Positions 2,830 to 61,454 of a stretch of DNA of 64,000 nt are shown piece by piece; within the stretch, counting starts at the first letter, position 1; every line of letters begins with the position of its first letter. This DNA is from an uncultured Flavobacteriaceae bacterium (GTDB lineage: Bacteria > Bacteroidota > Bacteroidia > Flavobacteriales > Flavobacteriaceae). The notes under the pieces were generated by a model. That model worked only from the letters and a program-made list of their open reading frames with translations. It was not told the DNA's origin and ran no database searches. The translations under genes and the position numbers were made by a program. The stretch is from NCBI GenBank assembly GCA_947500385.1, contig CANMSA010000001.1:1-64000 (forward strand), given 5' to 3'.

Positions 2830-2864
2830 TAGTTAATAATATTAATGATTAATTAAATTAACTA
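2830..2864 (+). promoter_or_regulatory. Operator A: double overlapping palindrome before the aceE operon
   Basis: Two copies of TNNTTAA-N5-TTAANNA lie at 2830-2848 (TAGTTAA / TTAATGA) and 2846-2864 (TGATTAA / TTAACTA), overlapping by 3 bp. They are followed at once by TAATTTTAAG, which resembles a Bacteroidota -7 promoter box. The coding start is 47 bp downstream. The minus side also ends in TTAACTAAATTT, so the divergent hydrolase could share the site. The same architecture recurs at eight other places in the window. Confidence 0.75.
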
Positions 2865-2911
2865 ATTTTAAGTACATTAGTACAGTCTTAACAGAATACA
2901 ATTGCGCTACT

Positions 2912-5590
2912 ATGAACGATTTAGCTACTCAAACCGGGGAGGATTGGAAACTTGAACTAAATGAATGGTTGGCTTCTATGGAAGAAGTGATTCAGGACCA
3001 AGGCGATAAACGTGCCGCTGATCTAATCCGTGAACTGCGAGCCCTGGCGATTCGCAAGGGCGTTATGTTAGGGGGAGAGGCCTTGAATTCTCCCTACATC
3101 AATACCATCAATGCCAAACACCAACCCCCTTATCCGGGAAACACGGTCTTAGAGACCAAGATCGAAAACATCAATCGGTGGAATGCCATGGCCATGGTGC
3201 TACAAGGATATGATAGTGGTGAGGGCGTTGGAGGCCACATTGCTACTTATGCCTCCGCGGCAAGCATGTACGAAGTAGGTTTTAATCATTTCTTTCGAAA
3301 AAAATCTGCGGAATACGGGGGAGATTTGGTCTCATTGCAACCGCATGCAGCTCCCGGGGTCTACGCACGTGCTATGTTAGAAGGACGGTTGACCGAGGCG
3401 CATTTGAAAAATTTCAGGCGTGAATTGAAATCCGAAGGTGGTCTACCCTCCTACCCACACCCAAGACGTTTGCCCGAATTTTGGGAAATTCCCTCGGCCT
3501 CCATGGGGTTGATCGGGGTGAGTGCGATTTATCAGGCACGTTTTAAAAAATACTTGGAAAATAGAGGTCTGAAAGAAAACAAAGGGGGTAAAATCTGGGC
3601 ATTCGTCGGGGATGGGGAAATGGACGAACCCGAAACGCTGGGTACATTGAACATTGCGGTTCGGGAAGAATTGGACAATTTGGTATTGGTGGTTAACTGC
3701 AATTTACAACGTTTGGACGGCCCCGTTCGCGGCAATGGGAAGGTAATCCAAGAACTGGAACGCAGTTTCTTAGGGGCCGGTTGGAATGTCACCAAGGTGA
3801 TTTGGGGCAGCGAATGGGACGCACTTTTGGAACGGGATCAGAAGGGAATTTTAGTCGATCGCATGAACAAGGCCCTCGACGGTGATTATCAACTTTACTC
3901 GGTGCTCCCGGGCGATGAAGTACGGCGCCATTGGGTCAAGGACAACCCGGAATTGGAACAGTTGATGCATTCGCTCTCCGATGAAGAGATCCGAACCATC
4001 AAACGGGGTGGCCATGATTACAAAAAAATATACGCAGCCTTCGATAAAGCCGCCAAACCGAATGGCAAGCCAAGTGTAATTTTAATGAAAACGCTTAAAG
4101 GTTACGGCATGGGGGATTCTGGCGAAGGCAAGAATACGACCCATCAAAAGAAAAACATGAACGCCGAAGAGCGCGTTGCCGCGGCGAAACGCTTCGGAAT
4201 ACCGCTAAGCGAGGAAGATGCGGCCAAAGCCACATTTTATGTTCCCGCATCCGACAGCCCCGAAATACGGTACATGAAAGAACGCAGAATGGCCCTTGGT
4301 GGGTACTTGCCGGAAAGGAAAGATGAGAGCCCCGTTATTAATACGCCGGGGGACGATCTTTGGGGAGAATTTTATACCGGTACGGAAGAACGCTCGGTGT
4401 CTACAACCATGGTATTGGTCCGTATTGTTACCAAGCTTTTGCGCCATGAGAGCATTAAAAAGTATGTGGTGCCGATTATTCCGGATGAGGCAAGAACCTT
4501 CGGGTTGGACGGGCTTTTCCGTTATGCCGGTATCTATCAACCAAAAGGGCAATTATATAAACCCGTGGATGCGGATAGCATCTCGTATTATAGAGAAAGT
4601 GTGGACGGGCAAATCCTCCAAGAGGGTATTTGCGAGGCGGGCGCCATTGCATCCTTTATGGCGGCCGGCTCTGCCTATTCGATGCATGGCCTACCGATGA
4701 TTCCCTTTTATGTGTTCTACTCTATTTTTGGCTTTCAGCGGGTAGGAGATATGATCTGGGCCTGTGGCGACATGATGTGCAAAGGGTTCTTAATAGGCGG
4801 TACATCGGGCAGGACTACCTTGAACGGCGAAGGGGTTCAGCACCAAGACGGGCATTCCCATATTCTATCGAGCATCGTTCCGAATATGAAAAGCTACGAT
4901 CCCTCGTTTGCGTACGAATTGGCCTTGATCGTCAAAGACGGTATCTATAAAATGTATGAGCTGCAGGAGAAAATCTTCTATTACATTACGGTGACCAATG
5001 AGAACTACCCGATGCCTATTATGCCCGAGGGTGTTGAAGAGGGGGTCATCAAAGGCATGTATCGGTACGAGAAATCCACTAAAAAAATAAAAAATAACAG
5101 AAAAGCGCACCTGATGGGCAGCGGTTCTATTATGATGCAAGTCATCGAAGCAAAGAAAATCCTGGAAGAATTGGGTATCACTACCGATATATGGAGCGTC
5201 ACCAGCTATACAGAACTTCAGCGCGATGCGCAAAATGTGGAACGAGAGCAGTTACTAGCGGCAGACGGGGAACGGCCCAAGGCGTATATTGAAGCGCTCT
5301 TGGAAAAAGAAACGGGAGTGTTCGTTTCGGTGTCCGACTATGTAAAACAATGGGGCCATGGTATTTCCAAATGGATGCCCAAAGCATATCATGTTTTAGG
5401 AACCGATGGGTATGGGCTAAGTGAGGCGCGCAATGATCTAAGGGATTATTTTGAAATAAGTCCAAAATACATAGCATTGGCCGCTTTGCAATTACTACGA
5501 AAAGAGGATGCGGTTACCGGAAAAGAAGTGAATGATTTTATAAAAAAATATGAAATAGATCGCAAGAAAGTGAATCCGGCGAACGAATAG
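2912..5590 (+). CDS. aceE: Pyruvate dehydrogenase E1 component, homodimeric type
   Basis: An 892-residue thiamine-diphosphate enzyme that decarboxylates pyruvate (or a related 2-oxo acid) and acetylates the E2 lipoyl group. Length and motifs fit the AceE type rather than the split PdhA/PdhB type: GGHIATYASAASMYEVGFNHF near the substrate/TPP site, and the TPP/Mg motif GDGEMDEPETLGTLNIA followed by NCNLQRLDGP. Cytoplasmic. It heads an operon with the E2 gene 23 bp downstream and lies behind operator A. No E3 gene is nearby, so a housekeeping lipoamide dehydrogenase would be shared. Within this regulon it probably handles pyruvate released by the HpaI-type aldolase (inference). Confidence 0.95.
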   Translation: MNDLATQTGEDWKLELNEWLASMEEVIQDQGDKRAADLIRELRALAIRKGVMLGGEALNSPYINTINAKHQPPYPGNTVLETKIENINRWNAMAMVLQGYDSGEGVGGHIATYASAASMYEVGFNHFFRKKSAEYGGDLVSLQPHAAPGVYARAMLEGRLTEAHLKNFRRELKSEGGLPSYPHPRRLPEFWEIPSASMGLIGVSAIYQARFKKYLENRGLKENKGGKIWAFVGDGEMDEPETLGTLNIAVREELDNLVLVVNCNLQRLDGPVRGNGKVIQELERSFLGAGWNVTKVIWGSEWDALLERDQKGILVDRMNKALDGDYQLYSVLPGDEVRRHWVKDNPELEQLMHSLSDEEIRTIKRGGHDYKKIYAAFDKAAKPNGKPSVILMKTLKGYGMGDSGEGKNTTHQKKNMNAEERVAAAKRFGIPLSEEDAAKATFYVPASDSPEIRYMKERRMALGGYLPERKDESPVINTPGDDLWGEFYTGTEERSVSTTMVLVRIVTKLLRHESIKKYVVPIIPDEARTFGLDGLFRYAGIYQPKGQLYKPVDADSISYYRESVDGQILQEGICEAGAIASFMAAGSAYSMHGLPMIPFYVFYSIFGFQRVGDMIWACGDMMCKGFLIGGTSGRTTLNGEGVQHQDGHSHILSSIVPNMKSYDPSFAYELALIVKDGIYKMYELQEKIFYYITVTNENYPMPIMPEGVEEGVIKGMYRYEKSTKKIKNNRKAHLMGSGSIMMQVIEAKKILEELGITTDIWSVTSYTELQRDAQNVEREQLLAADGERPKAYIEALLEKETGVFVSVSDYVKQWGHGISKWMPKAYHVLGTDGYGLSEARNDLRDYFEISPKYIALAALQLLRKEDAVTGKEVNDFIKKYEIDRKKVNPANE

Positions 5591-5613
5591 CGAACGATTT
5601 TAATCCAAACAAA

Positions 5614-7230
5614 ATGACCGAGTTAAAATTACCCGAATTGGGAGAAGGCATTGAAAGTGGTACCGTAATCACGATTATGGTACGGGTTGGCGACACTGTC
5701 AAAATGGAGCAATCCCTATTGGAAGTCGAGACAGACAAGGTCGTAGTAGAGGTACCCTGCGATGCCGAGGGAGTCATTACCGAAATTCTGGTAAACACGG
5801 GCGATCAGGTATCCCGTGGCATGCCCATACTTCGCTTAGAGGATAGCACCGTCCCCGCTGAAAGTCGACCCGTAAAAATAGAGGAAGCAACCCCCGAACC
5901 TACGGCCATGTCCGAGGTCAAGGAACCCCATGCACCAAAAGAGATGGTTCAGAAACCCGTCTTATCAGGCCCATCGGTCTCTGAAGTGACCTTGCCCTCT
6001 TTGGGTGAGGGGATCGAAAAGGGTACCATCATCGCCATCCATATCGCGGAAGGTGACCTTATTGTCGCCGAACAAACCCTTATCGAGGTGGAAACCGATA
6101 AAGTGGTGGTCGAGGTACCGGCAGATTTCGGAGGGACCATCACCAAGGTTTTGGTGAAAGTTGGCGATGAAATTCAGGAAGGGGCACCGATCGTCTCTTT
6201 GGAAAATGGTGTGGCCCATGCAGCTAGTACTCCTATCGCGGTGAAACCCACAGAAGCATCCCAAGAGGACGTTCAACAAACCATTCCCGTTCAAGAAACT
6301 GAAAAAGTGCAAACAACCGCGAAAACAGTACGCAGCGGAAAATTCAGGGCATCGCCTCTTGCGAAAAAAATAGCTCGGGAAATAGGGATCGATATAGCGA
6401 CCATGCCCCTTACGGCCGGCAGCAATCGAATTTCGGTCAAAGATGTAAAGAACCATGCAAAGGCCCTAAATCAGAACCGATCCGCCACTGGCGGAGGCAT
6501 GCCCATGGCTACTTTGCCCGATTTAAGTAAATGGGGCAATATCCGCAGTGAGGCCATGACGGGAATCATGCAGGCCACGAGTAAAAACATGACGACCTCC
6601 TGGAGTCAAATTCCACATGCGTGGTTACAGGAAAAAGTGGATATCACCTACTTGGAACAACAACGGCAAGCACACAAGGCCTCCTTTAAAGCTAAAGGAA
6701 GTTCCCTAACCATTACGGGGATTCTGGTAAAAGTGGTCGCCAAAGCCCTGGAAGAGTTTCCTATTTTCAATGCCAGTATCGACACCCAAAATTCGGCCAT
6801 TGTATTCAAAGACTACATCAATATTGGTGTAGCGGTAGATGGCGATAGAGGATTGATGGTGCCCGTATTAAAACACGCCGACCAAAAGAACATTACGGAA
6901 ATTGCGTTTGAGTTGGGAGCCCTAGCGGCAAAGGTAAAAGATAGGAAAATAGCCATGACCGAACTGGACGGGGCGACCTTCACTATTTCCAATTTAGGAG
7001 GTATTGGCACAAGTGCCATATTTCCCTTGGTCAGTTTTCCACAGGTCGCCATTTTAGGGGTTGCCGGAAGTCAGACCGAAGCGGTTTATGTGAACGGCCA
7101 GTTTCAGCCTAGGCTAATCATGCCCCTGACCATTGGGTTTGATCATCGTATTATCAATGGTGCCGATGCCGCTCGATTTCTAAAACATATCAAAATGTTA
7201 TTGGAAGATTGGTTTGTATGGAATTTATAG
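5614..7230 (+). CDS. Dihydrolipoamide acyltransferase (E2), two lipoyl domains
   Basis: A 538-residue E2 core subunit partnering the E1 gene just upstream. Two lipoyl domains carry the modified lysine in ETDKVVVEVP (Lys42 and Lys163). They are joined by Pro/Glu-rich linkers to a peripheral-subunit-binding domain (about 246-285, FRASPLAKKIAREIG) and a chloramphenicol-acetyltransferase-like catalytic domain (about 310-538). The active-site segment reads GFDHRIINGADAARF, keeping the His and Asp of the usual DHRxxxGAxxA motif. It transfers the acyl group to CoA. Acyl specificity cannot be read, but the AceE partner favours acetyl. Confidence 0.94.
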   Translation: MTELKLPELGEGIESGTVITIMVRVGDTVKMEQSLLEVETDKVVVEVPCDAEGVITEILVNTGDQVSRGMPILRLEDSTVPAESRPVKIEEATPEPTAMSEVKEPHAPKEMVQKPVLSGPSVSEVTLPSLGEGIEKGTIIAIHIAEGDLIVAEQTLIEVETDKVVVEVPADFGGTITKVLVKVGDEIQEGAPIVSLENGVAHAASTPIAVKPTEASQEDVQQTIPVQETEKVQTTAKTVRSGKFRASPLAKKIAREIGIDIATMPLTAGSNRISVKDVKNHAKALNQNRSATGGGMPMATLPDLSKWGNIRSEAMTGIMQATSKNMTTSWSQIPHAWLQEKVDITYLEQQRQAHKASFKAKGSSLTITGILVKVVAKALEEFPIFNASIDTQNSAIVFKDYINIGVAVDGDRGLMVPVLKHADQKNITEIAFELGALAAKVKDRKIAMTELDGATFTISNLGGIGTSAIFPLVSFPQVAILGVAGSQTEAVYVNGQFQPRLIMPLTIGFDHRIINGADAARFLKHIKMLLEDWFVWNL

Positions 7231-7250
7231 TTCACTGTTAAAAAACCGCT

Positions 7251-7916
7251 ATGAGTGTATATCTTTTTTTGAAACTACTACATGTGTTACTGTTCGCTTT
7301 TTGGCTCGGTACCGATATGGGCACCTACTATTCCAGCAAGTTCGTGGTAAACCCAAAATTGACCCCCGGGCAGCGTACGACGGCACTGAACATATTGCTA
7401 GGATGCGATCTAGGGCCTCGAATCGCAATGCCATTGGTAACCCCGACCGGTTTACATATGGCGAGTTTAATGGGTATTGCAAAAATAGGAAGCAGCGGTT
7501 TAGTGGGTATTTGGATTATTAGCATACTGTGGTTGATATTGGTTTTAGCAGCTCACTTTAGCAAGAACGAACCCTTGAAAAAAAACTTGAAAAATATTGA
7601 TTTTTGGATTCGTCCCATACTGGTAATCGGTATAGGAGCTGTGGCCATCTACAATCTGATATACCCCACCCATTTGATAGCTCCATTTTTAAATTATAAA
7701 TTGTTGGTACTTTGCGGATTGATATTATGTGGTTTGGGGATTCGTCAGCAATTAGCAAAATTCACCCCCGCTTTTATAGATCTAGTAAGCGGAAATGAAA
7801 CCCCGGACACCAATGCCATTATGAAAAAAAGGATGGACAATTGTATGCCATACGTTTATGGTATTTGGACTGGAACCATTGCATGTGCCGCCCTGGGCCT
7901 TCACTTGATAGGATAA
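7251..7916 (+). CDS. Integral membrane protein, CopD/DUF2269-like
   Basis: A 221-residue protein with about five hydrophobic segments, beginning with LFLKLLHVLLFAFWLGTDMGTYY. Conserved-looking histidines sit in the first and second helices (LLHVL, TGLHMA). The arrangement recalls small CopD/DUF2269-type membrane proteins, some of which bind haem or copper; that assignment is tentative. It lies 20 bp after E2 and 1 bp before the next gene, so it is in the same operon. A role in electron transfer or transport is possible but not shown. Confidence 0.6.
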   Translation: MSVYLFLKLLHVLLFAFWLGTDMGTYYSSKFVVNPKLTPGQRTTALNILLGCDLGPRIAMPLVTPTGLHMASLMGIAKIGSSGLVGIWIISILWLILVLAAHFSKNEPLKKNLKNIDFWIRPILVIGIGAVAIYNLIYPTHLIAPFLNYKLLVLCGLILCGLGIRQQLAKFTPAFIDLVSGNETPDTNAIMKKRMDNCMPYVYGIWTGTIACAALGLHLIG

Positions 7917-7917
7917 T

Positions 7918-8640
7918 ATGAAACACAAGACCATACGAGGATATATTCGGTATACAAGTAAAAAACCGGAACGTTTGGACCAAGAACGGGGACGGGAATT
8001 TTTTACCCTCACAACGCAATCAGATCATACATTGGTAATGCAGGCGCATTGTGAAATAGACGACGAACCCAATGTTATACGAGATGTAGTACATGCCATG
8101 CATTTGAATGGCTCTCCGATCGATTGTAATGTGCGGCTAACAGTGGGGGATCAATATGAAGGTACCGGCTGGTTTCGCTTTGAAGAGGACCTTGCAACCT
8201 GCGAAATGCACAATCGAAAAGACGGGCGGATCTCGCAGCGGATCATCACAAAAGGAACCATCCCTTGGTTGCAATCGCATCCCATCGTAGGGGATGGTTT
8301 GTTGATGAAACTATACGACCTCTCAAAGGGAATAGGGAAACAAATGATCAAAGATTTTATGTTGACCTCACCGGATCATCGTGGTGCTACGGGCCCCATG
8401 CTCTTCAAAATGGCCCAGATGAGCATTGAATACTTGGGAGAAGAACAAATTACTATTGCCGCAGGATCCTTTAATGCGAGGCATTTTGCGGTGGGGGATA
8501 CCGCTGGCAGTCTGTTGGAAGAACATCCGCCCTATCATGTTTGGGTAACCGCAGACGACGATTACCTATTCCTAAAGGCAGGGGCCGCAGGGTACATGCA
8601 AACGCATTACGAACTAGAAAGTGTTTCCTATTATACATAA
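7918..8640 (+). CDS. Conserved hypothetical protein, operon member
   Basis: A 240-residue soluble protein with no signal peptide or transmembrane segment, and no family I recognise with confidence. It has many short charged beta-like segments and ends in a hydrophobic/aromatic stretch (HVWVTADDDYLFLKAGAAGYMQTHYELESV). The start codon is 1 bp after the previous stop, so translation is probably coupled to the membrane protein. Its place in the regulon suggests a role tied to the unknown pathway. Confidence 0.7.
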   Translation: MKHKTIRGYIRYTSKKPERLDQERGREFFTLTTQSDHTLVMQAHCEIDDEPNVIRDVVHAMHLNGSPIDCNVRLTVGDQYEGTGWFRFEEDLATCEMHNRKDGRISQRIITKGTIPWLQSHPIVGDGLLMKLYDLSKGIGKQMIKDFMLTSPDHRGATGPMLFKMAQMSIEYLGEEQITIAAGSFNARHFAVGDTAGSLLEEHPPYHVWVTADDDYLFLKAGAAGYMQTHYELESVSYYT

Positions 8641-8651
8641 TAAAGCGGTTC

Positions 8652-9650
8652 ATGAAGTTCTTACTGAGTAAAATATGGTTCGGTTCATTCGTGTTGATTT
8701 TTTCATTCACAATGGGTTCTTGCAGTACTTCAATTTCCCAAAAAGTAGCACCTATCCATCTCGATGACATTCACATTATCGCAACGAATGAGGAAGCAAC
8801 GGTCGCTTTTTTTGAAAAGCATTTTGGAGCTAGGGAAATGGCACATCCGGGAGAGCGATTCGATTTGGTACGTTTTCTTTCTTTAAAGTGGCAAGGGCCA
8901 ACAATTACTATCACTCCAATTGGTCCATATGACGACTTACCGGCTGAACGCAATCAACGTTGGATCGACGCAAAGATAATTTTGCCTAAGTCTGAAAAAA
9001 CACATCCGGTTTATGGTATAAAATGGTTGGCAGTAGCAACTCCTTCTTTAAAAAAAGCGCGTTTGGAACTGCTGGAAGGTGGTATCAAAATCTCTGAAAA
9101 TGCTGTTTCGTTACCCTTAGAACCAACTATACCGGCTTTTAGCGTTTTCGGACCTGATGGGATTGAAATTCTTATCGTGGAACGACCTGAGTTCGAATTT
9201 GACGATGCAAAATATGCTATTGATCATGTCCAATTTCTTGTAAAAGATGTAAAGATCACTCAAAAGTTGTTTGAAGAAGTATTCGCTGCCAAACCTTTTC
9301 AGTATGAAACAAAAAGTATAGGTATGCAAGTCGCGGATGCCAAGCTGATTTTATCTGAACCTGAAGCATTTGGTATGAATCAAAAAGAGGTCTCCCCCCG
9401 GCGGGCCGAAGGTACTATTAGAATTGGTTTCGATCACCTAGGTTTTCTTTTTAGGGATGTAAAAGCTGCAGTTGTTCAAGCAGAAACAAAAGGTTATGCA
9501 CCTATTTTTCAACCCACAAGATATATTTATAAAAATAAACCTACAGTATATACATTTACGGCATTTTCATTACCTGAAGAGTTCAATATTGAAATGGTTC
9601 AGGCCGAGGGTCGTATCGGGCCGCATTCGTATTATATAGACCAGAATTAA
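8652..9650 (+). CDS. Secreted lipoprotein with two VOC domains
   Basis: About 332 residues starting at ATG 8652 (MKFLLSKIW). This start gives a clean lipoprotein signal ending in MGSC, whereas the longer frame runs back into the previous gene. Two vicinal-oxygen-chelate (glyoxalase/extradiol dioxygenase fold) modules follow, the first starting HLDDIHIIATNEEATVAFFEKHFGA and the second YAIDHVQFLVKDVKITQKLFEEVF. Base composition is visibly more AT-rich than its neighbours, suggesting separate acquisition. It is the last gene of the aceE operon and converges on the minus-strand operon. Substrate unknown; VOC proteins can be dioxygenases, isomerases or binding proteins. Confidence 0.8.
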   Translation: MKFLLSKIWFGSFVLIFSFTMGSCSTSISQKVAPIHLDDIHIIATNEEATVAFFEKHFGAREMAHPGERFDLVRFLSLKWQGPTITITPIGPYDDLPAERNQRWIDAKIILPKSEKTHPVYGIKWLAVATPSLKKARLELLEGGIKISENAVSLPLEPTIPAFSVFGPDGIEILIVERPEFEFDDAKYAIDHVQFLVKDVKITQKLFEEVFAAKPFQYETKSIGMQVADAKLILSEPEAFGMNQKEVSPRRAEGTIRIGFDHLGFLFRDVKAAVVQAETKGYAPIFQPTRYIYKNKPTVYTFTAFSLPEEFNIEMVQAEGRIGPHSYYIDQN

Positions 9651-9677
9651 CATTCCACTGCAAGCATACTTCCCATA

Positions 9678-10679
9678 TCACAATTGCACCACCACCTTGC
9701 CACAACTGTTTCCTTCCAGTAGGTATCGGGAAGCGTCCGCTATCGATTCAATACCCTCGAAAGCGGTCGGGTCCACTTTTACCTTCAATACCCCTTTTTG
9801 GTACTGATCAAATAGGTAGGCCCTTCCTTCCGGCTGTTGTTCCCGAAATAGATGGTTCATAAAACAGCGTACGGAACCTCCCTTCCAATAAATGGTTTCA
9901 TACACCCTGGATGCGGTAATTTGTTCAAATTGAGGCGCCGAAAGTTCAGTGGCCAAACCACTTACGACAAGGCGACCAAGCGGCGCCAAATTTCCTAAAA
10001 ATGCATCGAACATATGCCGACCGACCGAGTCGAAACCAACATCAATTTTATTGGGATATTCCTCTCCCAACACCTCGGCGACATCTTCCTCCCGGTAATT
10101 GATAATACGATCGCATGCATCCAAATCTTGTAACAACTTAACTTTCTCTTGTTTGCCACAAATAGCAACCACATGGCATTTTTTCTGTTTTGCCAATTGC
10201 ACTACGATATGCCCCAACCCGCCAGCAGCCGCCGAAACAACAATGGTTTCCCCTTCCTTTAATTCCGCCGTATTTTTGAGAGCCAAATAGGCCGAGACCC
10301 CAGTCGGATTCAAGGTAAGATAGGCCGCGGTCGCCTCGGGAATTGTTATGATGTCTTTCGCTTCAATGAGTTGGTACTCCTGATAGGCCGTACCTACTTT
10401 TACCGTTGAAACCGCTTGGCCCATTTGCACGTCTTTGACCTTGTTTCCCATAGCTACTACTTCCCCGACCGCTTCCACCCCAAAAACGTAGGGAAACTGC
10501 ACATTGATATAGGGAACACGTCCGCGATACAGCTCGCGATCATACAAGGCGTTGATTCCTATACAAGTGTTCTTTATCAAAAGTTGTGAATCTCCTGGAA
10601 TCGGCACGTCGGTTTCGACGATACGGGTCGCCCCGTGCAGGGTTTCTGCAAATTTCGAAATGACGAGTTGCTTATTCAT
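9678..10679 (-). CDS. Quinone-oxidoreductase-like MDR family NADPH-dependent reductase
   Basis: About 333 residues of the medium-chain dehydrogenase/reductase superfamily, close to zeta-crystallin/quinone oxidoreductases. It shows an N-terminal GroES-like domain (LLIKNTCIGINALYDRELYRG) and a Rossmann domain with VVSAAAGGLGHIVVQLAK. Zinc-ligand cysteines are not evident, as expected for the zinc-free Qor branch. Such enzymes reduce alpha,beta-unsaturated carbonyls or quinones with NADPH. The ATG at 10679 is preferred over an earlier ATG (10688) because GAGGAGG-like sequence precedes it; it overlaps the upstream stop. Last gene of the minus operon starting at 14719. Confidence 0.85.
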   Translation of the reverse strand: MNKQLVISKFAETLHGATRIVETDVPIPGDSQLLIKNTCIGINALYDRELYRGRVPYINVQFPYVFGVEAVGEVVAMGNKVKDVQMGQAVSTVKVGTAYQEYQLIEAKDIITIPEATAAYLTLNPTGVSAYLALKNTAELKEGETIVVSAAAGGLGHIVVQLAKQKKCHVVAICGKQEKVKLLQDLDACDRIINYREEDVAEVLGEEYPNKIDVGFDSVGRHMFDAFLGNLAPLGRLVVSGLATELSAPQFEQITASRVYETIYWKGGSVRCFMNHLFREQQPEGRAYLFDQYQKGVLKVKVDPTAFEGIESIADASRYLLEGNSCGKVVVQL

Positions 10680-11436
10680 CCTCCTCACCTTTTAAAACGA
10701 ACAAGGCATCGGCCAGTTCCTCATTCACCTCAAAATCGGTCCAAAAAACCTCATTGGCCAGGGTACCATCATAGAACAATTCTACACGGCCCGATTGCAA
10801 CCACGAGTACCCATCTTTGGAGAAGAATTCGGAGTACTCGCGGTGATGCCAACCGCGCGGGGTTTGAAATGCTACTTTGACGATTTTAAAATCTTCTTTG
10901 TCAATCCCGAAAAAAGTCTCGCCCTTATTGGGGTCTACGACCATTATCGTATATGCTGGCCTTGTTTTGACCGTGTCATCTGCGACCAACTTTAGCGTAT
11001 AGCCATCATCCAAAGCATGGCGAATGGCCCCATAGCCAAAATTTGATGCCCAGCGGGCATCCGCATCCGACGGGTCTTGCTTTCCCCTAAGATCATAGGT
11101 GTTCGTACCATCGAAGGTTACCACAAAAACGGGTATTGAGTCTTTAAAGGATTCGATACGCACCTTTCCATTGGCGACGTGGGCATCATCTTTGGTACGT
11201 TCAAATACGCGCCACATATTGTGGGTTTCATGTTTGCTCGCTTTTCCATCCCGATAAAAAATAGCATGGCCTTTCATGCTTAGACTTTTGGGTTTCTGCC
11301 AAAATGCACCGCCGGCTTTCTCATGTGCTTTTTGCATGATCTGGGCGGCGCTAAGTGCTTCTTTCTTTTTGTTCTCTTTGCAACTAAATAACAATAAGAA
11401 CACGAATATGGTAAATACGGTTACTTGTTTTATCAT
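10672..11436 (-). CDS. Putative outer-membrane lipoprotein, LolA-like beta protein
   Basis: A 254-residue protein with a lipoprotein signal (Cys19 in LLLFSCK). The body begins AAQIMQKAHEKAGGAFWQKPKSLSMKGHAIFY and resembles the LolA/outer-membrane lipoprotein-sorting fold often seen in secreted proteins of Bacteroidota (tentative). It ends in an acidic tail. It overlaps both the CpcT-like gene upstream (4 bp) and the reductase downstream, indicating tight translational coupling in the MFS operon. It may bind a hydrophobic ligand in the periplasm; function unknown. Confidence 0.7.
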   Translation of the reverse strand: MIKQVTVFTIFVFLLLFSCKENKKKEALSAAQIMQKAHEKAGGAFWQKPKSLSMKGHAIFYRDGKASKHETHNMWRVFERTKDDAHVANGKVRIESFKDSIPVFVVTFDGTNTYDLRGKQDPSDADARWASNFGYGAIRHALDDGYTLKLVADDTVKTRPAYTIMVVDPNKGETFFGIDKEDFKIVKVAFQTPRGWHHREYSEFFSKDGYSWLQSGRVELFYDGTLANEVFWTDFEVNEELADALFVLKGEEDE

Positions 11437-12182
11437 CTGTTTATGTATTCGTTACACGGGGTTTCTTTTAGGTTGATAGTGGGGCCCTTGTCGGCCACAC
11501 CGAATACCAGTTTGCCATCGGCATCGGTTGCCATATCATCTAACAACAGTGCATCTCTTCGAAGAACCAGCGTTTCATTTAGGTACACCTGCGTTTCAAA
11601 TCTATCGGAATAGTAGTTACAAGCATTTTCTTTAAGATACCCTTTGAACACAGCTCCTTCTCGTTTCCAGAAAACATCACAACCCGGCTTTAGGAAAAAA
11701 TCATCTGGTTGAAGCGTACCAAATACCGCTGAATTCAAATGTCCATTTTTAAGTTTGCTCGGGTCTTTGGGGGTATAGATCCGTAACCGAATTGCCTGTT
11801 CGGTTTCATCGATCTCAAAAGCATAAATTCTTTGTCGATACAGATCATCCAAATCGTAATGTTGGGATTGCTGCGCATATAAGATACGACCAGGAATGAA
11901 ATCCAATTCAACCGCATGGAATATATGATGCGTTTGCCGGTGCCTCCTTTCTTTGGGAATATTTTCAACGGCTTCTCGATAGACTTGTTGATGGTTATCG
12001 TATTCCCCCGGAAACCATTCTAAGAGCACTTTAAGATCTTTTTCAAGACGTTCCTTGGATGCTGTCGTAGCAACCTCTTTTTCAACAAACGGGCGTGCAT
12101 CATTTTTTACTGAAAAATGCACTGCCAGGGGAATACTAAATAGTAGAAAGAGTACCGGTATGTGGCATAGTTTATACATCAT
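11433..12182 (-). CDS. Secreted CpcT/CpeT-like (phycobiliprotein-lyase fold) protein
   Basis: About 249 residues. The start at 12182 overlaps the MFS stop (ATGA) and gives a signal peptide (MMYKLCHIPVLFLLFSIPLAV). The mature part has landmarks of the CpcT/CpeT family: WFPGEYDNHQQVYREA near the start, then ILYAQQS, YRQRIYAFEID, KPGCDVFWKREGAVFKG and a late ADKGPTINLKETPCN. The family is a lipocalin-like beta barrel that binds and attaches bilins in cyanobacteria, but no phycobilisome gene is present here. It probably acts as an extracytoplasmic ligand binder. One of four clear paralogues in the window. Confidence 0.75.
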   Translation of the reverse strand: MMYKLCHIPVLFLLFSIPLAVHFSVKNDARPFVEKEVATTASKERLEKDLKVLLEWFPGEYDNHQQVYREAVENIPKERRHRQTHHIFHAVELDFIPGRILYAQQSQHYDLDDLYRQRIYAFEIDETEQAIRLRIYTPKDPSKLKNGHLNSAVFGTLQPDDFFLKPGCDVFWKREGAVFKGYLKENACNYYSDRFETQVYLNETLVLRRDALLLDDMATDADGKLVFGVADKGPTINLKETPCNEYINR

Positions 12183-13444
12183 TTCATTTTTCTGGTTAAG
12201 GGGACTGGTCGTATTTTCGGAATAAAAATCATAATGATCCAGGCGGATAATACATGTAAAAAGGCTACGATGACAAACACGGGAGAATAGGAAAATGTGT
12301 CGACCAGCCAGCCGATCAATGGAGTGAACAACATAGCGCCAAAGCTTCCGGTCGAACCTGAAATACCCCAAACAGATGCTGCGTCTTCCTTCGGAAACAA
12401 ATCAATGGGCAGTGTAAAGAGCGATGATTGTTTGAATTGAGTAGCGAAGAGCGAGAAGCTAATTAAAGCAATAGCCCAGTAAGGCGATTCGATATACAAA
12501 CACCCCAATACGGGAATCACCAGGAAGGCCCCGACCCAAAGCACCCATTTTCGGGAAGCATCCAATGAAAAGCCATGCTGCATCAAACGACTCCCTGTCC
12601 AACCTCCCACAAAGCTTCCCAAGTCGGAAAGAAGGAAAGGAATCCATGCGAACATTCCTATTTCCATGAGACTAAACCCTTTTTCATCGGCCAGCCAAGA
12701 AGGAAGCCAGAAAACAAAAAAATAGAACGCTCCGTCGGAAACAAACCGAGAAAGTGCCAGCCCCCATACCTCCTTATGTTTAAAATAATGTAGCCAAGGT
12801 AGTTTGTTTCGGTTCTCCGCTTCTAGTTGTCCGCTCTGAATATAGGTCAGTTCCTCCGCACTAACACGCGGGTGCTCATTCGGTTCATAGTAAACCCATC
12901 GCCAAAGCAACAACCAAAAAAATCCCAAGGCTCCCGTTACCACAAAAGCCATTTTCCATCCCACGGTAAGAATCAACCAAGCCATTAGCGGCGGGGCTAT
13001 GATGGCGCCCATTCCGGGGCCCATATTCAATATGCCCACTGCCTTACTACGTTCTTCCTTCGGAAACCATTCAGAAATAGCCTTCATGGCCGCAGGGTAG
13101 TTACCCGCTTCCCCTATCCCCAATAAAAATCGAAAAGCGCCTAAACTGAACAACCCCTTACCAAAAGCATGCAGCATATTTGCAATTGACCACCATATGA
13201 CGGCCAAAGAGAAGCCTTTTTTTGTTCCAAGAATATCGACCAACCTTCCGGAAACGATTTGCATAATGGCATAGGAGAGCAAGAATGCACTAACAATATA
13301 CCCATATTGCTCGTTTGACAGACCGAGGTCTTCCCTGATAACGGGAGCAGCTACCGACAATGCTTGCCGGTCTATGTAGTTGATGGTGGTAGCCAAAAAA
13401 ATAGTCCCGGCGATGCCCCAACGAATGTTTCTGCCCCTATGCAT
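12179..13444 (-). CDS. MFS transporter, anion:cation symporter (ACS) type
   Basis: A 421-residue inner-membrane carrier with about twelve membrane spans. The N-terminus (RWGIAGTIFLATTINYIDRQALSVAAPVIREDLGLSNEQYG in pieces) and the motif GRLVDILGTKKGF after helix 2 are typical of the hexuronate/organic-acid ACS branch. Members usually import small carboxylates with protons or sodium. It follows a second MFS gene by 3 bp and overlaps the CpcT-like gene, so it is probably the uptake carrier for an acid produced outside the cytoplasm (inference). Confidence 0.88.
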   Translation of the reverse strand: MHRGRNIRWGIAGTIFLATTINYIDRQALSVAAPVIREDLGLSNEQYGYIVSAFLLSYAIMQIVSGRLVDILGTKKGFSLAVIWWSIANMLHAFGKGLFSLGAFRFLLGIGEAGNYPAAMKAISEWFPKEERSKAVGILNMGPGMGAIIAPPLMAWLILTVGWKMAFVVTGALGFFWLLLWRWVYYEPNEHPRVSAEELTYIQSGQLEAENRNKLPWLHYFKHKEVWGLALSRFVSDGAFYFFVFWLPSWLADEKGFSLMEIGMFAWIPFLLSDLGSFVGGWTGSRLMQHGFSLDASRKWVLWVGAFLVIPVLGCLYIESPYWAIALISFSLFATQFKQSSLFTLPIDLFPKEDAASVWGISGSTGSFGAMLFTPLIGWLVDTFSYSPVFVIVAFLHVLSAWIIMIFIPKIRPVPLTRKMK

Positions 13445-13447
13445 CCG

Positions 13448-14905: not shown

Positions 14906-14951
14906 TTTTTAAGCATCAAAAGAGAAAAGTAACCATTTTTAGTAAACAAAC

Positions 14952-16772: not shown

Positions 16773-16787
16773 TCAAATCACAGGTAC

Positions 16788-49772: not shown

Positions 49773-49776
49773 GTAT

Positions 49777-51282: not shown

Positions 51283-51295
51283 AGCTTCCTAATAA

Positions 51296-51829
51296 TTACT
51301 CTTTTGTGACCTCTTTAAGATATGCGATCAAGGCGTCTTGCTGTTCTTTCTTTTTAACCCCAACAAACGCCATTTTTGTTCCAGGAACATAACTAGCGGG
51401 ATTTTCCAGCCATTCGCGAATGGTCTCCTCGCTCCATACAATCCCCTTGTTCTTCAATTCTTCCGAATACACAAAATCGGCTTTCATTCCGGCTTTTTGA
51501 CCGAAAAAACCATTCAGGTTGGGACCTACCTTATGGGGTTCTCCCTTCACTACGTTATGACAGGCGGCACATAAGAGAAATACACGTCTCCCAAGTTTGT
51601 TATCCGATTCGGGTATGGTCGCGGCGACGGCCGGCGCCTTTTGCCCGGTCTCCACAGGCTTGGTATTGAATTCTGATTTCGATTTATCCTCTTGTTTTTT
51701 GGCGGTATTCCCACAGGAAGCCATGCCTAAAATGAAACCCATTAGTACAAACAAAGAAAGGAGGCTCCATCCCTTTTTTAAGCTATTTTTTATCTCAGTC
51801 AAAGAACTAAAAACCGACTCACTTTTCAT
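51296..51829 (-). CDS. Class I cytochrome c lipoprotein
   Basis: A 177-residue lipoprotein (Cys39 in GMASCG) carrying one c-type haem site, Cys87-Ala-Ala-Cys90-His91, with a probable Met ligand in GTKMAFVG and the KVGPNLNGFFGQKAG loop typical of mitochondrial-type cytochrome c. It probably carries electrons from the adjacent oxidases at the outer face of the inner membrane. First gene of the minus-strand operon; its ATG is only 11 bp from operator F. Confidence 0.9.
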   Translation of the reverse strand: MKSESVFSSLTEIKNSLKKGWSLLSLFVLMGFILGMASCGNTAKKQEDKSKSEFNTKPVETGQKAPAVAATIPESDNKLGRRVFLLCAACHNVVKGEPHKVGPNLNGFFGQKAGMKADFVYSEELKNKGIVWSEETIREWLENPASYVPGTKMAFVGVKKKEQQDALIAYLKEVTKE

Positions 51830-51840
51830 TATTCAAAAAT

Positions 51841-51875
51841 TAGTTTACTTAATTAATAGTTAATAAAGTTAACTA
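51841..51875 (-). promoter_or_regulatory. Operator F: double overlapping palindrome before the cytochrome c operon
   Basis: In plus coordinates, 51841-51859 (TAGTTTA / TTAATAG) and 51857-51875 (TAGTTAA / TTAACTA) share 3 bp. Read towards the minus-strand operon, the array ends AACTAATTTTTGAATA and the ATG follows 11 bp from the last palindrome base. The first copy has one arm mismatch (TAAACTA). Confidence 0.77.
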
Positions 51876-52399
51876 ATTATTTGACATATTGACACAAAAC
51901 CAGCAAAAAGTTAGTGATAAAACGAAAAAGTTAAAAGAATATAGCATCCATTTGTACAAGGGCTATTTATCATGTGCGGGAAACACTTGTTAAAACAAAC
52001 ACCTACGCGTACCCTTGGGAAAACACCTTTTCTTGAATAAAACTATCATTTCCCATGGGCCTTATTTCAATCAGATGTTTTTTTTAAGAAGGTCTTTGGT
52101 ACTATTTACTTAAGACAACGTAGCGTACTCCACAACACAACCAAGACGGAAGTATTACGAAAGATAGAAAGACGTCGAATTTTAACGATAAGAAGTGGCA
52201 TATACCCCCGCTTTCGTAAATTTAAACTTCCTATGTTGGTTTGCTTAACAACTTTAAAGTCAAAATGAGTGGATACGGCACCACTGTTAATATGCACCAT
52301 GTTGTAAGCGCAAGGTGGTTAAAAAGCATCGATGTAATTTTAATTCAATATTTTTGAGGGACCCAACAGCAGTCAAACCCCATAACATTAATAGGCCGC
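51876..52399. other. Intergenic region with regulator promoter
   Basis: About 520 bp between operator F and the regulator gene contain no convincing gene. TATTTTTG at 52348-52355 matches the Bacteroidota -7 consensus TAnnTTTG and lies 44 bp before the regulator start; a -33 element was not confidently seen. The shared operator is absent, so the regulator does not look autoregulated through it. Confidence 0.5.
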
Positions 52400-53452
52400 A
52401 TGGCATTATCCACTATTGAACATATACAGGTCGACGTAGACTCGAGAATTCCCAAGTACAAACAAATTATTGATGCGATTATTGGTGCAATTAACCGAGG
52501 GAGTTTACAAATGGGGGAAAAAATACCATCGATCAACGAAGTAAGCGAGCAATGCCTTTTATCAAGAGACACCGTTGAAAAAGCATACGCACAACTGAAA
52601 TCCCAAAATATTATCGAATCTGTTAAGGGGAAGGGCTACTACGTTACGCGTACCGATTTATCCTCTAAAATAAAAGTGCTCTTTTTAATCAACAAACTGA
52701 GCACTTATAAAATGAGAATCTTTAATTCTTTCGTGCATCACCTCGGTACAAATGCCAATGTTGATTTGGATATTTACCATTGCGAACCCTCTGTTTTCAT
52801 TGGTATTTTAGAAAAGAAGTTAGGCCATTACGACCAGTATGCGATTATGCCACACTTCAAAAATGAAGCCTTACAGCACATGGTATGTACCGATGAGATT
52901 CTTGCCATAATCCGGCAAATTCCGGAAGAAAAACTAATTATCCTGGATCGCAACCTCTTGAGTTTGTCGATGAAAGTTGGGCGTGTTTATCAAGATTTCA
53001 ATAAAGATATCTTTAATGCGTTGACCATCGGGTTGGACAAAGTGAAGCGCTATAAAAAAGTAATTTTGGTGTATCCTAGTAAGTCGGTCTACCCCTATCC
53101 TAAAGGAATCGTTACCGGGTTTAGAAAATTTTGTGTAAAGTACGGTTTTGATCATGAAATACTCGATGAAATCTATGACGGTATGGAACTACAGAACAAA
53201 GATCTTTTTATCACCATTGAAGAAACCGATTTGGTCAACTTGGTAAAACAAGTGCGGGACCGTCATTACAAACTCGGGGAAGACATTGGTATTATATCCT
53301 ATAACGATACCCCTTTAAAAGAGTTGCTTGGTATTACCGTGATCAGTACCGATTTCAAAAAAATGGGAGAAGAAGCGGCCCGCATGATTCTTAATAATAA
53401 TAAATTGACCCTTAAAAATAGTTTTCATTTCATAGACCGCCATTCGGTCTGA
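52400..53452 (+). CDS. GntR-family regulator with LacI-type ligand-binding domain
   Basis: A 350-residue transcription factor. Residues about 8-78 form a GntR winged helix (IPKYKQIIDAIIGAINRGSLQ, then GEKIPSINEVSEQCLLSRDT, VEKAYAQLKSQ, IIESVKGKGYYV). Residues about 90-345 look like a periplasmic-binding-protein/LacI fold (KVLFLINKLSTYKMRIFN; DIGIISYNDTPLKELLGITVIST in parts). Such hybrids repress sugar or other catabolic genes until the inducer binds. It is the only regulator in the window and is central among the nine operators, so it is the leading candidate for the regulon (inference). Confidence 0.88.
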   Translation: MALSTIEHIQVDVDSRIPKYKQIIDAIIGAINRGSLQMGEKIPSINEVSEQCLLSRDTVEKAYAQLKSQNIIESVKGKGYYVTRTDLSSKIKVLFLINKLSTYKMRIFNSFVHHLGTNANVDLDIYHCEPSVFIGILEKKLGHYDQYAIMPHFKNEALQHMVCTDEILAIIRQIPEEKLIILDRNLLSLSMKVGRVYQDFNKDIFNALTIGLDKVKRYKKVILVYPSKSVYPYPKGIVTGFRKFCVKYGFDHEILDEIYDGMELQNKDLFITIEETDLVNLVKQVRDRHYKLGEDIGIISYNDTPLKELLGITVISTDFKKMGEEAARMILNNNKLTLKNSFHFIDRHSV

Positions 53453-53566
53453 TTTCTACTCTTTTTGGCGCTTTTGATTCGCGATTTAGCTGGTTGGTCA
53501 AAGTAAATCTCCATACGCCATTGGACCGTAGATCCGCTGGCAGCACTGTAAAAACTACGATACCAA

Positions 53567-55027
53567 TCAATTCATTTTTCTAAGCTTGTCAAGTTTTGCT
53601 GCGAGCGCCTCCTGATCGTGCAGCGTCCCCTCTTTTATCACCGCATGTATTCGGATAGTATTCCGAATGTTGTTCAATGGATCGGCATCTAAGATCACCA
53701 AATCTGCCCGCATGCCTTCCGCTATGGTCCCCAAGGTATCATCCAACCCGAAATACCGTGCCGGATTAATGGTAGCTGATTTTAAGGCTTCTAATGGAGA
53801 AAGGCCCGCTTTGACCAAGGCCGCCAATTCTTCGTGAAGACTCAACCCGGGTGTCAGAAACGCAATGGGTGTATCGGTGCCGGCCATGATCGGAATCCCT
53901 TTTTCATGTACTTTCGCTACCATCATATAGTTCCATTTGTCGTAGGCCTTTCTAAAGTCAGAAACGGGGTACGCTTTCAGGGCGATAGAGCGTTCTTTCC
54001 AATACCGACCAATGGAATCTGGAACAAACTCGTAGCTTTCTTGGTAGCTTTCCCTTGCGTAGTATTTTCCGGAAAAAAAGGTATTCAAAGCCAAGGTGGG
54101 TATTTGCCAAGTATCGTTCTTTTTTAAAACAGACAGGACCTGATCGGCTATTTGGGCATCAAAATTTGCAATAGCGGTTTCTTGCTGCGCTTTATGAACC
54201 TTCGCTCGCAAGTCTGCCCCCGATTCACCTACCCCTGTACGGAGCAGCTCTTGTCTTTCCTGTAATAAATCATCGGCATTTGCCACACAGGATAACTCCA
54301 AGTTTCGAAGATGTTCCATACTGTTCATTCCTGCATTGGAAGCGCTGATCACGTCCATACTCAAAGGCACATGCCCGGTAACTTTTAGCCCATTCTTCTT
54401 AGCAAGCTCAAGTATTTTTTTGAATTGATCGGGACTAAGCATCTCATAGGCCTTTAAAAAGTCCACCTCCTTGGAAATAAGTTTTTCTATGTTTTCAACT
54501 ACGGCATCGACGGAATTGAGACGTACCGAAAGTTCAGGGTGCCGGGCATCGCCCCCATCGTATACATTTGGTTCCCCGTCGAGCAAAGGTCCGGCCATCA
54601 TTACCCTCGGTGCATCCGTCGGGTTTGCCAGTGCCCGGTCTTTCCACGCTTTCACAAAATCTACGTTCCCACCGGTATCACGCACACTGGTCACCCCATG
54701 TGCCAAAAACAAGTCGAACATTCGGGGCGCCAGTTCTTCTACATAAGCAAAGTGTACATGAGCGTCCCATAAGCCCGGAATCAAATACTTTCCACGCCCA
54801 TCGATTATGGTATTCTCAGGGGATAAGGGCAACGTAGCGGTGTCCCCTACCCTCAGGATCTTACCGTTCTTTATGATTACGGTCTGGTAGTCCTTTCTAC
54901 CATCAACGGGGTCGATTACCGTAATGTTTTCGATACAGATGGCCTCTTCGAACAAACTATATTCCGGTTTACAGGAGGTAGTGGTCAGTACACCTACTAT
55001 TATTAAAAATGCGGCAATATGTTTCAT
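53567..55027 (-). CDS. Secreted amidohydrolase lipoprotein
   Basis: A 486-residue metal-dependent amidohydrolase of the imidazolonepropionase-like/prolidase group, with lipoprotein signal (Cys19 in TTTSCKPE). Metal-site features: DAHVHF (His90, His92), GHVPLS, MNSMEHLRN and AGTDTPIAF; the end NPARYFGLDDTLGTIAEGMRADLVILDADPL (in parts) is typical. It would hydrolyse cyclic or linear amides in the periplasm. Operator G lies 64 bp upstream, linking it to the regulon. Confidence 0.9.
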   Translation of the reverse strand: MKHIAAFLIIVGVLTTTSCKPEYSLFEEAICIENITVIDPVDGRKDYQTVIIKNGKILRVGDTATLPLSPENTIIDGRGKYLIPGLWDAHVHFAYVEELAPRMFDLFLAHGVTSVRDTGGNVDFVKAWKDRALANPTDAPRVMMAGPLLDGEPNVYDGGDARHPELSVRLNSVDAVVENIEKLISKEVDFLKAYEMLSPDQFKKILELAKKNGLKVTGHVPLSMDVISASNAGMNSMEHLRNLELSCVANADDLLQERQELLRTGVGESGADLRAKVHKAQQETAIANFDAQIADQVLSVLKKNDTWQIPTLALNTFFSGKYYARESYQESYEFVPDSIGRYWKERSIALKAYPVSDFRKAYDKWNYMMVAKVHEKGIPIMAGTDTPIAFLTPGLSLHEELAALVKAGLSPLEALKSATINPARYFGLDDTLGTIAEGMRADLVILDADPLNNIRNTIRIHAVIKEGTLHDQEALAAKLDKLRKMN

Positions 55028-55091: not shown

Positions 55092-55126
55092 TAGTTAATT
55101 TATTTAATTATTAACCGCATTAACTA
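55092..55126 (-). promoter_or_regulatory. Operator G: double overlapping palindrome before the amidohydrolase gene
   Basis: Copies at 55092-55110 (TAGTTAA / TTAATTA) and 55108-55126 (TTATTAA / TTAACTA) share 3 bp. Read towards the minus-strand gene the array runs into CTAATTTCG. It lies 64 bp from the amidohydrolase start and 378 bp from the plus-strand gene at 55505, so the former is the likely target. Confidence 0.73.
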
Positions 55127-60253: not shown

Positions 60254-60288
60254 TAGTTAATTTATTTAATCATTAACTATATTAATTA
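60254..60288 (+). promoter_or_regulatory. Operator H: double overlapping palindrome before the MDR reductase gene
   Basis: Copies at 60254-60272 (TAGTTAA / TTAATCA) and 60270-60288 (TCATTAA / TTAATTA) share 3 bp and are followed by TTATTTTAGG. The start codon is 77 bp downstream. The second right arm departs from TTAACTA by one base. Confidence 0.7.
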
Positions 60289-60365
60289 TTATTTTAGGGG
60301 ATGAAATTCGAAGTGTAGGAAGCGGTTCTTCCGGTATTGTCATCACAACGAATAAAGAAAATCTT

Positions 60366-61376
60366 ATGAAAAATAATCGTTTAGTGTTGGCCGCACGCCC
60401 CAAAAATCGGGTTAATATATCTGATTTTAAAATGGAAACTGTAGAAATACCTCCCCTTCAAGAAGGAACTTTTTTGATTAAGGTGCACTACTTGTCGGTA
60501 GCCCCGGTTATGAAATTCTACATGTTAGATGGTGCGGGAATCGAGAATATACTGGAAATAGGTGAAGTGATGCGCGGCAGGGGCGTAGGAGAGGTAATAG
60601 AAAGCAAGCATTCGGATTTTAAGGTGGGAGACATCGTTCAAGGCAAATGCGGATGGCAAGAATATGTAGTATGTGACGGGAGTCCTTATTATATGATGTA
60701 TAAGGTACAACAACGGGGATTGTCTTATTCTACCGCTTTGGGCATTTTAGGAATGACAGGTTTTACGTCCTATTTTGGTTTGTATGATGTAGGGGAGCTA
60801 AAGGGAGGAGATGCAGTGTTGGTATCGGCAGCAGCTGGCGGTGTTGGCTCTAACCTTGGGCAATTGGCAAAAATAAAGGGAGCGCGGGCCATTGGTCTGG
60901 CCAGTACCGATGAAAAATGTAAACTGCTCACTGAAAAACTCGGATACCATGCTTCGATAAACTATACTACAGAAGATGTCTCAGCGCGAATCGATTACTA
61001 TTTTCCGGACGGTATCGACGTTTATTTCGATAATGTCGGTGCAAAAGTCCTCGATATTGCGTTGAGCAAACTGCGTAGGTATGCCAGAGTGGTTTGTTGT
61101 GGCAGAATTTCACAATACGATGACGTTCAAAACTCAGATTACAATCTTACCAACTGGCATAAGGTTGGCGCAAATTGCGCCAAAATGCAAGGTTTTTTCA
61201 TTTACGATTACGAGCGGCAGTTTCCAAAAGCGGAAAAAGAAATGGCTCAATGGATCAAAGAGGGAAAATTGAGTTTCCAGGAAGATATCTTGGAAGGTCT
61301 TGAAAACATGCCAGTTGCATTAAATCGGTTGTTTGAACGTAAAAATATAGGAAAGCAGTTAGTAAAGATTAGTTAA
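60366..61376 (+). CDS. NADP-dependent MDR family reductase (leukotriene/curcumin reductase-like)
   Basis: A 336-residue medium-chain reductase of the PTGR/CurA branch. N-terminal LVLAARPKNRVNISDFKMET matches that branch; the Rossmann motif VLVSAAAGGVGSNLGQLAKI and the later VYFDNVGAKVLDIAL and RVVCCGRISQY are characteristic. It has no zinc ligands. It reduces the C=C of conjugated enones with NADPH. It stands alone behind operator H, suggesting a role on an unsaturated intermediate of the regulon pathway. Confidence 0.88.
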   Translation: MKNNRLVLAARPKNRVNISDFKMETVEIPPLQEGTFLIKVHYLSVAPVMKFYMLDGAGIENILEIGEVMRGRGVGEVIESKHSDFKVGDIVQGKCGWQEYVVCDGSPYYMMYKVQQRGLSYSTALGILGMTGFTSYFGLYDVGELKGGDAVLVSAAAGGVGSNLGQLAKIKGARAIGLASTDEKCKLLTEKLGYHASINYTTEDVSARIDYYFPDGIDVYFDNVGAKVLDIALSKLRRYARVVCCGRISQYDDVQNSDYNLTNWHKVGANCAKMQGFFIYDYERQFPKAEKEMAQWIKEGKLSFQEDILEGLENMPVALNRLFERKNIGKQLVKIS

Positions 61377-61435
61377 ACACTTTCCGTAACTTTCCGAACA
61401 GTCATATGATGAGAACTTTTCAAAGGCTTTCAAAT

Positions 61436-61454
61436 TAGTTAACATAGTTAACTA
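61436..61454 (+). promoter_or_regulatory. Operator I: perfect palindrome before the acyl-CoA carboxylase operon
   Basis: TAGTTAA-CATAG-TTAACTA, with 9-bp perfect arms when flanks are included (61435-61455), is nearly identical to operator D. It is followed by ATTTTTCAA, and the first start codon is 52 bp downstream. Only one copy is visible. Confidence 0.77.

Follow-up and report, generated by a model that had tools for sequence, protein, structure and literature searches.

Nine palindromic sites in a 64,000-nucleotide stretch of an uncultured Flavobacteriaceae bacterium (contig CANMSA010000001.1, here called the window) are very probably operators of a MarR-family protein. The corresponding gene, marR, is located at one edge of a gene island that continues beyond the window, and its product would repress the island, including the marR operon, until a ligand releases it. 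One small protein and one operator appear in this way to gate 75-95 kb and about 70 genes. The sites had been recognized in a first-pass annotation, which assigned them to a GntR-type regulator; we correct this assignment to MarR.

The genome of the window is referred to as G000, with the window on contig C1 and further pieces of the island on C35 and C27, while the comparison set consists of 299 genomes drawn from the family. Stretches of 100 kb around the sites were fetched in two of them, G026 and G215, together with the relevant stretches of C27 and C35. Genes were called by a simple open reading frame (ORF) picker and not by an annotation pipeline. Protein family scans covered 82 G000 proteins (57 window ORFs and 25 on C35, C27 and C1); the remaining G000 proteins and a few peculiar to G026 or G215 were read by eye or lay outside the scans. 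The core site was scored out of 14 bases, with the reversed pattern used as a control, and homologs of MarR and GntR in the 299 genomes were accepted at E<=1e-25.

The annotated sequence is present at all nine positions of the window (Table 1). In the window, the strict pattern TNNTTAA-N5-TTAANNA is matched 13 times, always within the nine sites, against a chance expectation of 0.24 and a maximum of 2 in 100 shuffles, and the nine sites are thereby confirmed as real and far beyond chance. Seven of them had been described as double palindromes with an offset of 16 bp. The double form is real: when both sides of 33 strong sites were inspected, a further TTAA-N5-TTAA core matching in at least 7 of 8 bases was found 17 times at this offset, compared to a mean of 0.58 at other offsets. 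Offset 9 is also prominent (16 times), which is ascribed to repeated TTAA of the flanks. The description of individual palindromes was less exact, as 13 of the 16 satisfy the strict pattern. Both do so in the double sites 2830, 18818, 55092 and 60254, and only the right one in 14871, 29669 and 51841, where the left palindrome misses the last base and, in 51841, additionally has TTTA instead of TTAA.

On the scale of the whole G000 genome, the loose pattern is weak, with 57 sites against 43 in the reversed control, and the core with two mismatches is again unspecific (39 vs 91 in the control). The exact core TAGTTAA-N5-TTAACTA is specific, with nine copies against one reversed; five are in the window, three on C35 and one on C27, so the random genome-wide occurrence named as a possible objection in the first-pass annotation is not seen. 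The stretches of the three genomes harbor 48 sites scoring at least 12/14 (24 perfect, 9 of 13/14 and 15 of 12/14), and none of them is inside a gene. Noncoding sequence accounts for only 7-10% in the window and in the stretches from G026 and G215. The reversed pattern was found nine times in the same stretches, always as 12/14, five times inside genes and never perfect. The 48 sites fall into 43 clusters, 13-15 per genome, and every cluster has at least one gene start downstream of it. One cluster extends 7 bp into the end of the preceding gene, and many sites are about 10-130 bp from a start codon. The extended consensus, AAW-TAGTTAA-YWWWR-TTAACTA-WT, was built from 91 sites of at least 13/14 in the three genomes and in 25 of the 26 named marR loci described below (L064, the copy of G026, was omitted). 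The T located two bases beyond the core is present in all 91.

A perfect core site exists in 13 of the 299 family genomes, and more than one only in G000 (9), G215 (8), G026 (7) and G152 (2); no such site is present in two genomes of the same genus. The extended motif with one mismatch allowed is confined to the island in G026 (8), G215 (14) and G000 (10), and occurs twice in G152 and not at all in the two same-genus genomes, the reversed control giving 0 or 1 per genome. A regulon spread over the whole genome is unsupported, given this concentration of perfect and extended sites in the island. Nine family genomes have a single perfect site each. These lone sites are taken as chance because none is accompanied by a MarR ortholog, none fits WTAGTTAAYNNNRTTAACTAWT when inspected by eye, and two of the nine are within long open frames.

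The sites in G026 and G215, which represent two other flavobacterial genera, make up one continuous 75-kb block in each. Among 88 G000 genes in the compared stretches, reciprocal best hits were obtained for 68 in G026 (median identity 77%), 65 in G215 (80%), 64 in both and none in either for 19. Along these blocks, the G000 pieces are arranged in the order C27, C35 and C1, all running the same way. This order is likely, albeit not proven, in G000, because the end of C35 and the start of C1 share the same TTTGAGG repeat. Counterparts of the window sites precede the orthologous gene or operon in all nine cases in G215 and in eight of nine in G026, where the aldolase site is missing and the cytochrome operon has been rearranged. 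A single divergent site is common to the amidohydrolase and MDR genes in G026 and in G215. The view of a single operator defining one regulon over most of the window therefore holds, as its sites are concentrated in the island and stand before orthologous operons, while the extent proposed for the regulon was understated: it continues on C35, C27 and on C1 to 68647. The island is 75-95 kb long, with about 70 genes and an operator before nearly every operon.

A MarR-type winged-helix gene is found at the island edge in all three genomes, and its product is the only DNA-binding protein found in all three islands, the G000 protein being 92% and 82% identical to those in the other two. The protein matches Pfam families PF12802 (1.3e-12) and PF01047 (7.8e-11), and a fold search, with a query model of modest confidence, retrieved MarR-family structures including DNA complexes. 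Residues 64-106 are nearly invariant in 28 aligned orthologs. Two further island genes that might encode regulators, an AraC-type gene of C35 (901-2061) and a C27 gene at 42734 considered DeoR-type by eye, likewise have no counterpart in the other islands.

MarR orthologs are present in four of the 299 genomes, exactly the four with more than one perfect operator. Were the genomes independent draws, the chance of such a match would be about 1 in 3e8, but they are not independent, because the island moves as one unit; G152 was a fresh case, not examined earlier. In addition, named genomes were scanned with short peptide patterns from the MarR alignment, a procedure that finds close relatives only. 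It disclosed 26 loci, including L064 (the record of G026) and L076 (the record of G152); L058 and L059 are 98-99% identical to the MarR query, so that independent loci number fewer than 26. All 26 carry a site of at least 13/14, with 60 such sites and no reversed control in 495,559 bases. In 25 of them, the nitrilase-type gene is preceded by a site of at least 12/14, which is located 1104-1151 bp upstream of marR; the flanks vary.

G152 allows marR to be followed outside a complete island. No imidase or HyuB match was found in this genome at the limits used, and a tblastn search of 20 kb around its marR detected, among the island genes sought, no others than marR and five carboxylase/mutase operon genes. 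The operator is kept with the carboxylase/mutase operon. G152 thus bears a decayed island, in which marR and an operator survive together.

Titles of the MarR loci indicate Maribacter, Croceitalea, Aquimarina, Muricauda and other Flavobacteriaceae as carriers, one of them being the cultured Maribacter vaceletii (L070), and the island is sporadic across marine members of the family. The extended pattern was matched in 1 of 395 genomes across the order, G000 itself; G026, G215 and G152 are absent from that listing, which makes it of little use for judging spread. The MarR protein had no match at 1e-10 in 72,556 plasmid records, which gives no indication of the island on plasmids. The carboxylase/mutase operon adjoins marR in L067, L068, L070, L073, L074 and L076 and does not in G000, G026 and G215; because of this difference, the island order is regarded as permuted between carriers.

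According to the mechanism we propose, a MarR dimer would read TAGTTAA-N5-TTAACTA with one half-site per subunit. Double sites could take two dimers 16 bp apart, about 1.5 helical turns, and hence on opposite faces. Dimers occupying the promoter region of nearly every island operon would shut the whole catabolic island, the marR operon too, until the substrate or a pathway intermediate releases them. Concerning the promoters, the sites had been described as running into a TAATTTT/TATTTTT -7 box. The exact TAATTTTG is present at 29702 as annotated. As a directional element, the abutting box was rejected, since TANNTTT abuts 10 of 18 one-directional sites on the gene side and 8 of 18 on the other side, and it is better read as part of a symmetric operator flank. 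Farther out, a TANNTT[TG] beginning 5-11 bases beyond the site is present in 19 of the 66 flanks that face a gene and in 1 of 22 others (a few double sites are counted twice). The published -7 consensus is TAnnTTTG, as given in an excerpt of PMC9723704. Many operators may lie just upstream of a -7 box, a weak indication given that the consensus is unmet there.

Several observations weigh against repression by MarR or limit its reach. The exact TANNTTTG occurs in none of the 66 gene-facing flanks, and the -7 box is not reliably placed. Ten of the 43 clusters have no site above 12/14, six of them being a lone 12/14 site, and because of that a few clusters may be due to chance; similarly, sites of exactly 12/14 in the 26 loci equal the control (13 vs 13). 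The AlphaFold model of MarR is modest, with a mean predicted local distance difference test (pLDDT) of 66.9, and blocks of 85-91 over residues 81-110. Because the G152 marR (L076) has no 12/14 site upstream in the available flank, autoregulation is not universal. The G152 site C10:164806 is in a stretch without island homologs, its neighbors being a cysteine desulfurase-like gene and a small lipoprotein-like gene (by eye). Co-occurrence alone cannot separate MarR from other island genes, although G152 does so in part, and distant MarR proteins without operators would escape the peptide-pattern scan.

A different role of the same protein, binding the sites and activating the genes, or doing both, is improbable. 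MarR proteins that activate genes have been reported (RmaH; excerpt of PMC13277315), and the -7 boxes match the consensus poorly. This is opposed by the many sites close to start codons and by the operator preceding the marR operon itself in 25 of the 26 loci. An operator near start codons and before the regulator's own operon is the usual picture for a repressor.

We give a somewhat lower probability still to a regulator encoded elsewhere in the genome, with MarR as a passenger of the island. Regulators were sought in the island and at its edges, and binding by MarR is what we infer from the observations above. Against a passenger role, the MarR ortholog tracks the operators in all four genomes and all 26 loci, the G152 marR stays with the operator after imidase and HyuB loss, and half-site and spacing resemble a known MarR operator.

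The GntR-type protein of the window, proposed as the regulator in the first-pass annotation, is very improbable in that role. It has a GntR helix-turn-helix, and in G000 its gene is only 525 bp from one site. Neither the G026 nor the G215 island has a counterpart of it, though the operators are conserved there; the closest relative in G215 (C1:990033, 76%) is about 400 kb from the island. Moreover, homologs exist in 131 of the 299 genomes; as only 13 genomes have a perfect site, at least 118 of the 131 lack one. The assignment was therefore rejected.

Finally, the repeats can hardly be AT-rich promoter or structural sequences that no specific protein recognizes: the motif is AT-rich and its loose forms are as common as controls genome-wide, but perfect cores exceed the reversed pattern nine to one in G000 and 24 to zero in the three-genome stretches, any perfect core is limited to 13 of the 299 genomes, and sites persist while the surrounding bases change.

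In comparison with known systems, the operator resembles that of MexR, a MarR-family regulator of Pseudomonas aeruginosa. As far as the excerpted text of PMC9892617 describes, MexR has GTTGA inverted half-sites with a 5-bp spacer, compared to GTTAA and 5 bp in the island operator, and its sites PI/PII overlap the promoters of the MexR gene and the operon it targets. MexR controls one efflux operon and its own gene, whereas the island has 13-15 site clusters per genome and about 70 genes, and double palindromes with a 16-bp offset are a feature of the island. By sequence, the island MarR is only a distant relative of solved structures (best 1.5e-8, YetL). HpaR and HosA, regulators of aromatic acid catabolism, share with it the winged-helix fold (the HpaR-DNA complex 7el3 and ligand-bound HosA 8aga and 8xzu are among the fold matches) and the position of the regulator gene beside catabolic genes, but identity is about 20%, and the gene set of the island is different and uncharacterized. 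GntR-type regulators with a LacI-like sensor domain in Flavobacteriaceae are comparable in that one sits among the sites in G000, and differ in being outside the conserved island and widespread without the operator. The MarR-operator pair is thus of a known regulator type, unusual in operator number and block size.

Searches of open-licence literature gave, among the matches listed, no paper that deals by title with this island or its MarR regulon, and nothing by title on this operator for TAGTTAA with MarR. DUF1838 was met only in a paper on a Streptomyces antibiotic cluster. Phycobilin degradation in Flavobacteriaceae yielded nothing on point, and hematinic acid or tetrapyrrole catabolism no such gene cluster, by title among the matches listed. 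As far as these searches show, the regulon is unpublished and the pathway it guards uncharacterized. The regulon offers a handle on this pathway: MarR should be released by its substrate or one of its intermediates, and its genes can be read off from the operators.

Regarding the possible substrate, one operon on C35 comprises two PuuE-type cyclic amide hydrolases, an isochorismatase-family amidase, a LeuCD-type hydratase, a class III CoA transferase and an HMG-CoA-lyase family protein. Relatives of the amidase in PDB include N-carbamoylsarcosine amidohydrolase and 3uao, the latter presumably a maleamate amidase. The window contains a second aconitase-family pair, an HpcH/HpaI aldolase, HyuA/HyuB, flavin oxidases, VOC, DUF1838 and CpeT proteins, and the right end of the island biotin carboxylase, carboxyltransferase and methylmalonyl-CoA mutase subunits. 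An order from imide to half-amide, maleate, malate and then propionyl-CoA and a 2-oxo acid fits these families, which suggests cyclic imides flowing to propionyl-CoA. The PDB matches of the protein at 49777 (monoamine oxidases) and of that at 23241 (fumarate/urocanate reductases) do not fix a substrate, and the PDB sequence search gave no usable match for the protein at 33870.

As a hypothesis built on gene family names, it is possible, though unlikely, that the island encodes a complete tetrapyrrole pigment pathway under a single switch, acting on bilins, chlorophyll or heme residues, e.g. algal phycobilins. The pigment would be opened to substituted maleimides by bilin-binding CpeT-like proteins together with VOC and flavin oxidases, and the two PuuE-type hydrolases and the isochorismatase-type amidase would convert these maleimides to dialkylmaleates. 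LeuCD-type hydratases, the CoA transferase and HMG-CoA-lyase/HpcH-type lyases could then yield 2-oxo acids and propionyl-CoA, fed into central metabolism by the PDH-like pair, carboxylase and methylmalonyl-CoA mutase, while MarR would sense an intermediate. In support, hematinic acid and methylvinylmaleimide are end products of one oxidative route of heme breakdown, according to an excerpt of PMC10343206. For the CpeT-like protein at 33140, CpcT with phycocyanobilin is the best match by fold (17% identity, model pLDDT 72), and 4o4o the only PDB sequence match (4.7e-5); the CpeT-like protein 48732-49772 has only a weak CpcT match (0.005). Several results speak against pigment degradation. No ring-opening enzyme was identified, none of the imidases, the amidase and the CoA transferase reaches any of the listed equivalog cut-offs, and CpeT occurs in 19 other family genomes without this MarR, as one better-scoring copy in each. 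Other imide- or lactam-bearing compounds would fit as the substrate as well. If true, the pathway would represent a bacterial route for carbon and nitrogen of algal pigments. Four diverged CpeT-family proteins (window 11433, 28438, 33140 and 48729) were observed in this heterotroph.

Table 1. Operator sites, conserved blocks and candidate regulator genes of the G000 island; positions refer to the window unless a contig is given.
Feature	Position	Strand	Context	Counterparts or remarks
Double operator	2830..2864		between divergent alpha/beta hydrolase (1909-2742 -) and PDH E1/E2-type operon (2912- +)	G026:C1:1117999-1118033; G215:C1:1437095
Double operator, left palindrome weaker	14871..14905		between MFS transporter genes (13448-14719 -) and DUF3598-like/aconitase-family operon (14952- +)	G026:C1:1107620; G215:C1:1424852 and 1427202
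Double operator	18818..18852		before HpcH/HpaI aldolase (18950 or 18974-19735 +)	G215:C1:1421408; none of at least 12/14 in G026
Single perfect operator	24772..24790		before HyuB operon (24801- +)	G026:C1:1098191; G215:C1:1415525
Double operator, left palindrome weaker	29669..29703		before VOC/DUF1838 operon (29736- +)	G026:C1:1092398; G215:C1:1410699
Double operator, left palindrome weaker	51841..51875		before cytochrome c/flavin amine oxidase operon (51296-51829 and on, -)	G215:C1:1394353; G026 operon rearranged, parts with sites at 1080846 and 1119897
Double operator	55092..55126		before amidohydrolase (53567-55027 -)	G026:C1:1079190-1079224; G215:C1:1392725-1392759; there common to MDR gene
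Double operator	60254..60288		before MDR reductase (60366-61376 +)	G026 and G215: one site for this gene and amidohydrolase
Single perfect operator	61436..61454		before biotin carrier/biotin carboxylase/carboxyltransferase/methylmalonyl-CoA mutase operon (61507 to C1:68647 +)	G026:C1:1078108; G215:C1:1391681
First conserved block	1909..36686		all called ORFs except 8652-9650 and 11433-12182	reciprocal best hits in G026 and/or G215
Second conserved block	44751..55027	-	minus-strand operons, interrupted by GntR gene	
Third conserved block	60366..63531	+	acyl-CoA carboxylase-type genes, methylmalonyl-CoA mutase subunits	continues to C1:68647 past the window
GntR-type regulator, periplasmic-binding-protein-like domain	52400..53452	+	PF00392, PF13377	judged not to be the regulator of the sites
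marR	C27:43490-44005 (outside window)		171-aa MarR protein at island edge, next after C-N hydrolase of nitrilase family, behind operator	

Genes of 36.8-43.5 kb, the GntR gene and genes of 55.5-60.1 kb have no counterpart in the other islands except for one 26% match. The segment 36847-43502, with DUF2807, thioesterase, beta-lactamase-family and hydrolase genes, has no operators and almost no counterparts, and is probably a later insertion. DUF1800, DUF1501 and a secretion-tail protein are encoded between the amidohydrolase and MDR genes (window 55092-60288). The operators at 55092 and 60254, which flank this insert, are alike over about 44 bp, and this pair may have been duplicated by the insertion. 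Following the TTTGAGG tandem repeats at the start of C1, an IS3-type transposase pair (515-1758), surrounded by ATTACTG-like repeats, is present within the island at a place where G026 has none. Near the MarR end, a 4707-aa open frame (C27:21612-35735; L051, L022) appears ketosynthase- and AMP-ligase-like by eye, and SusC/D-like genes are located between this frame and the MarR end of the island.

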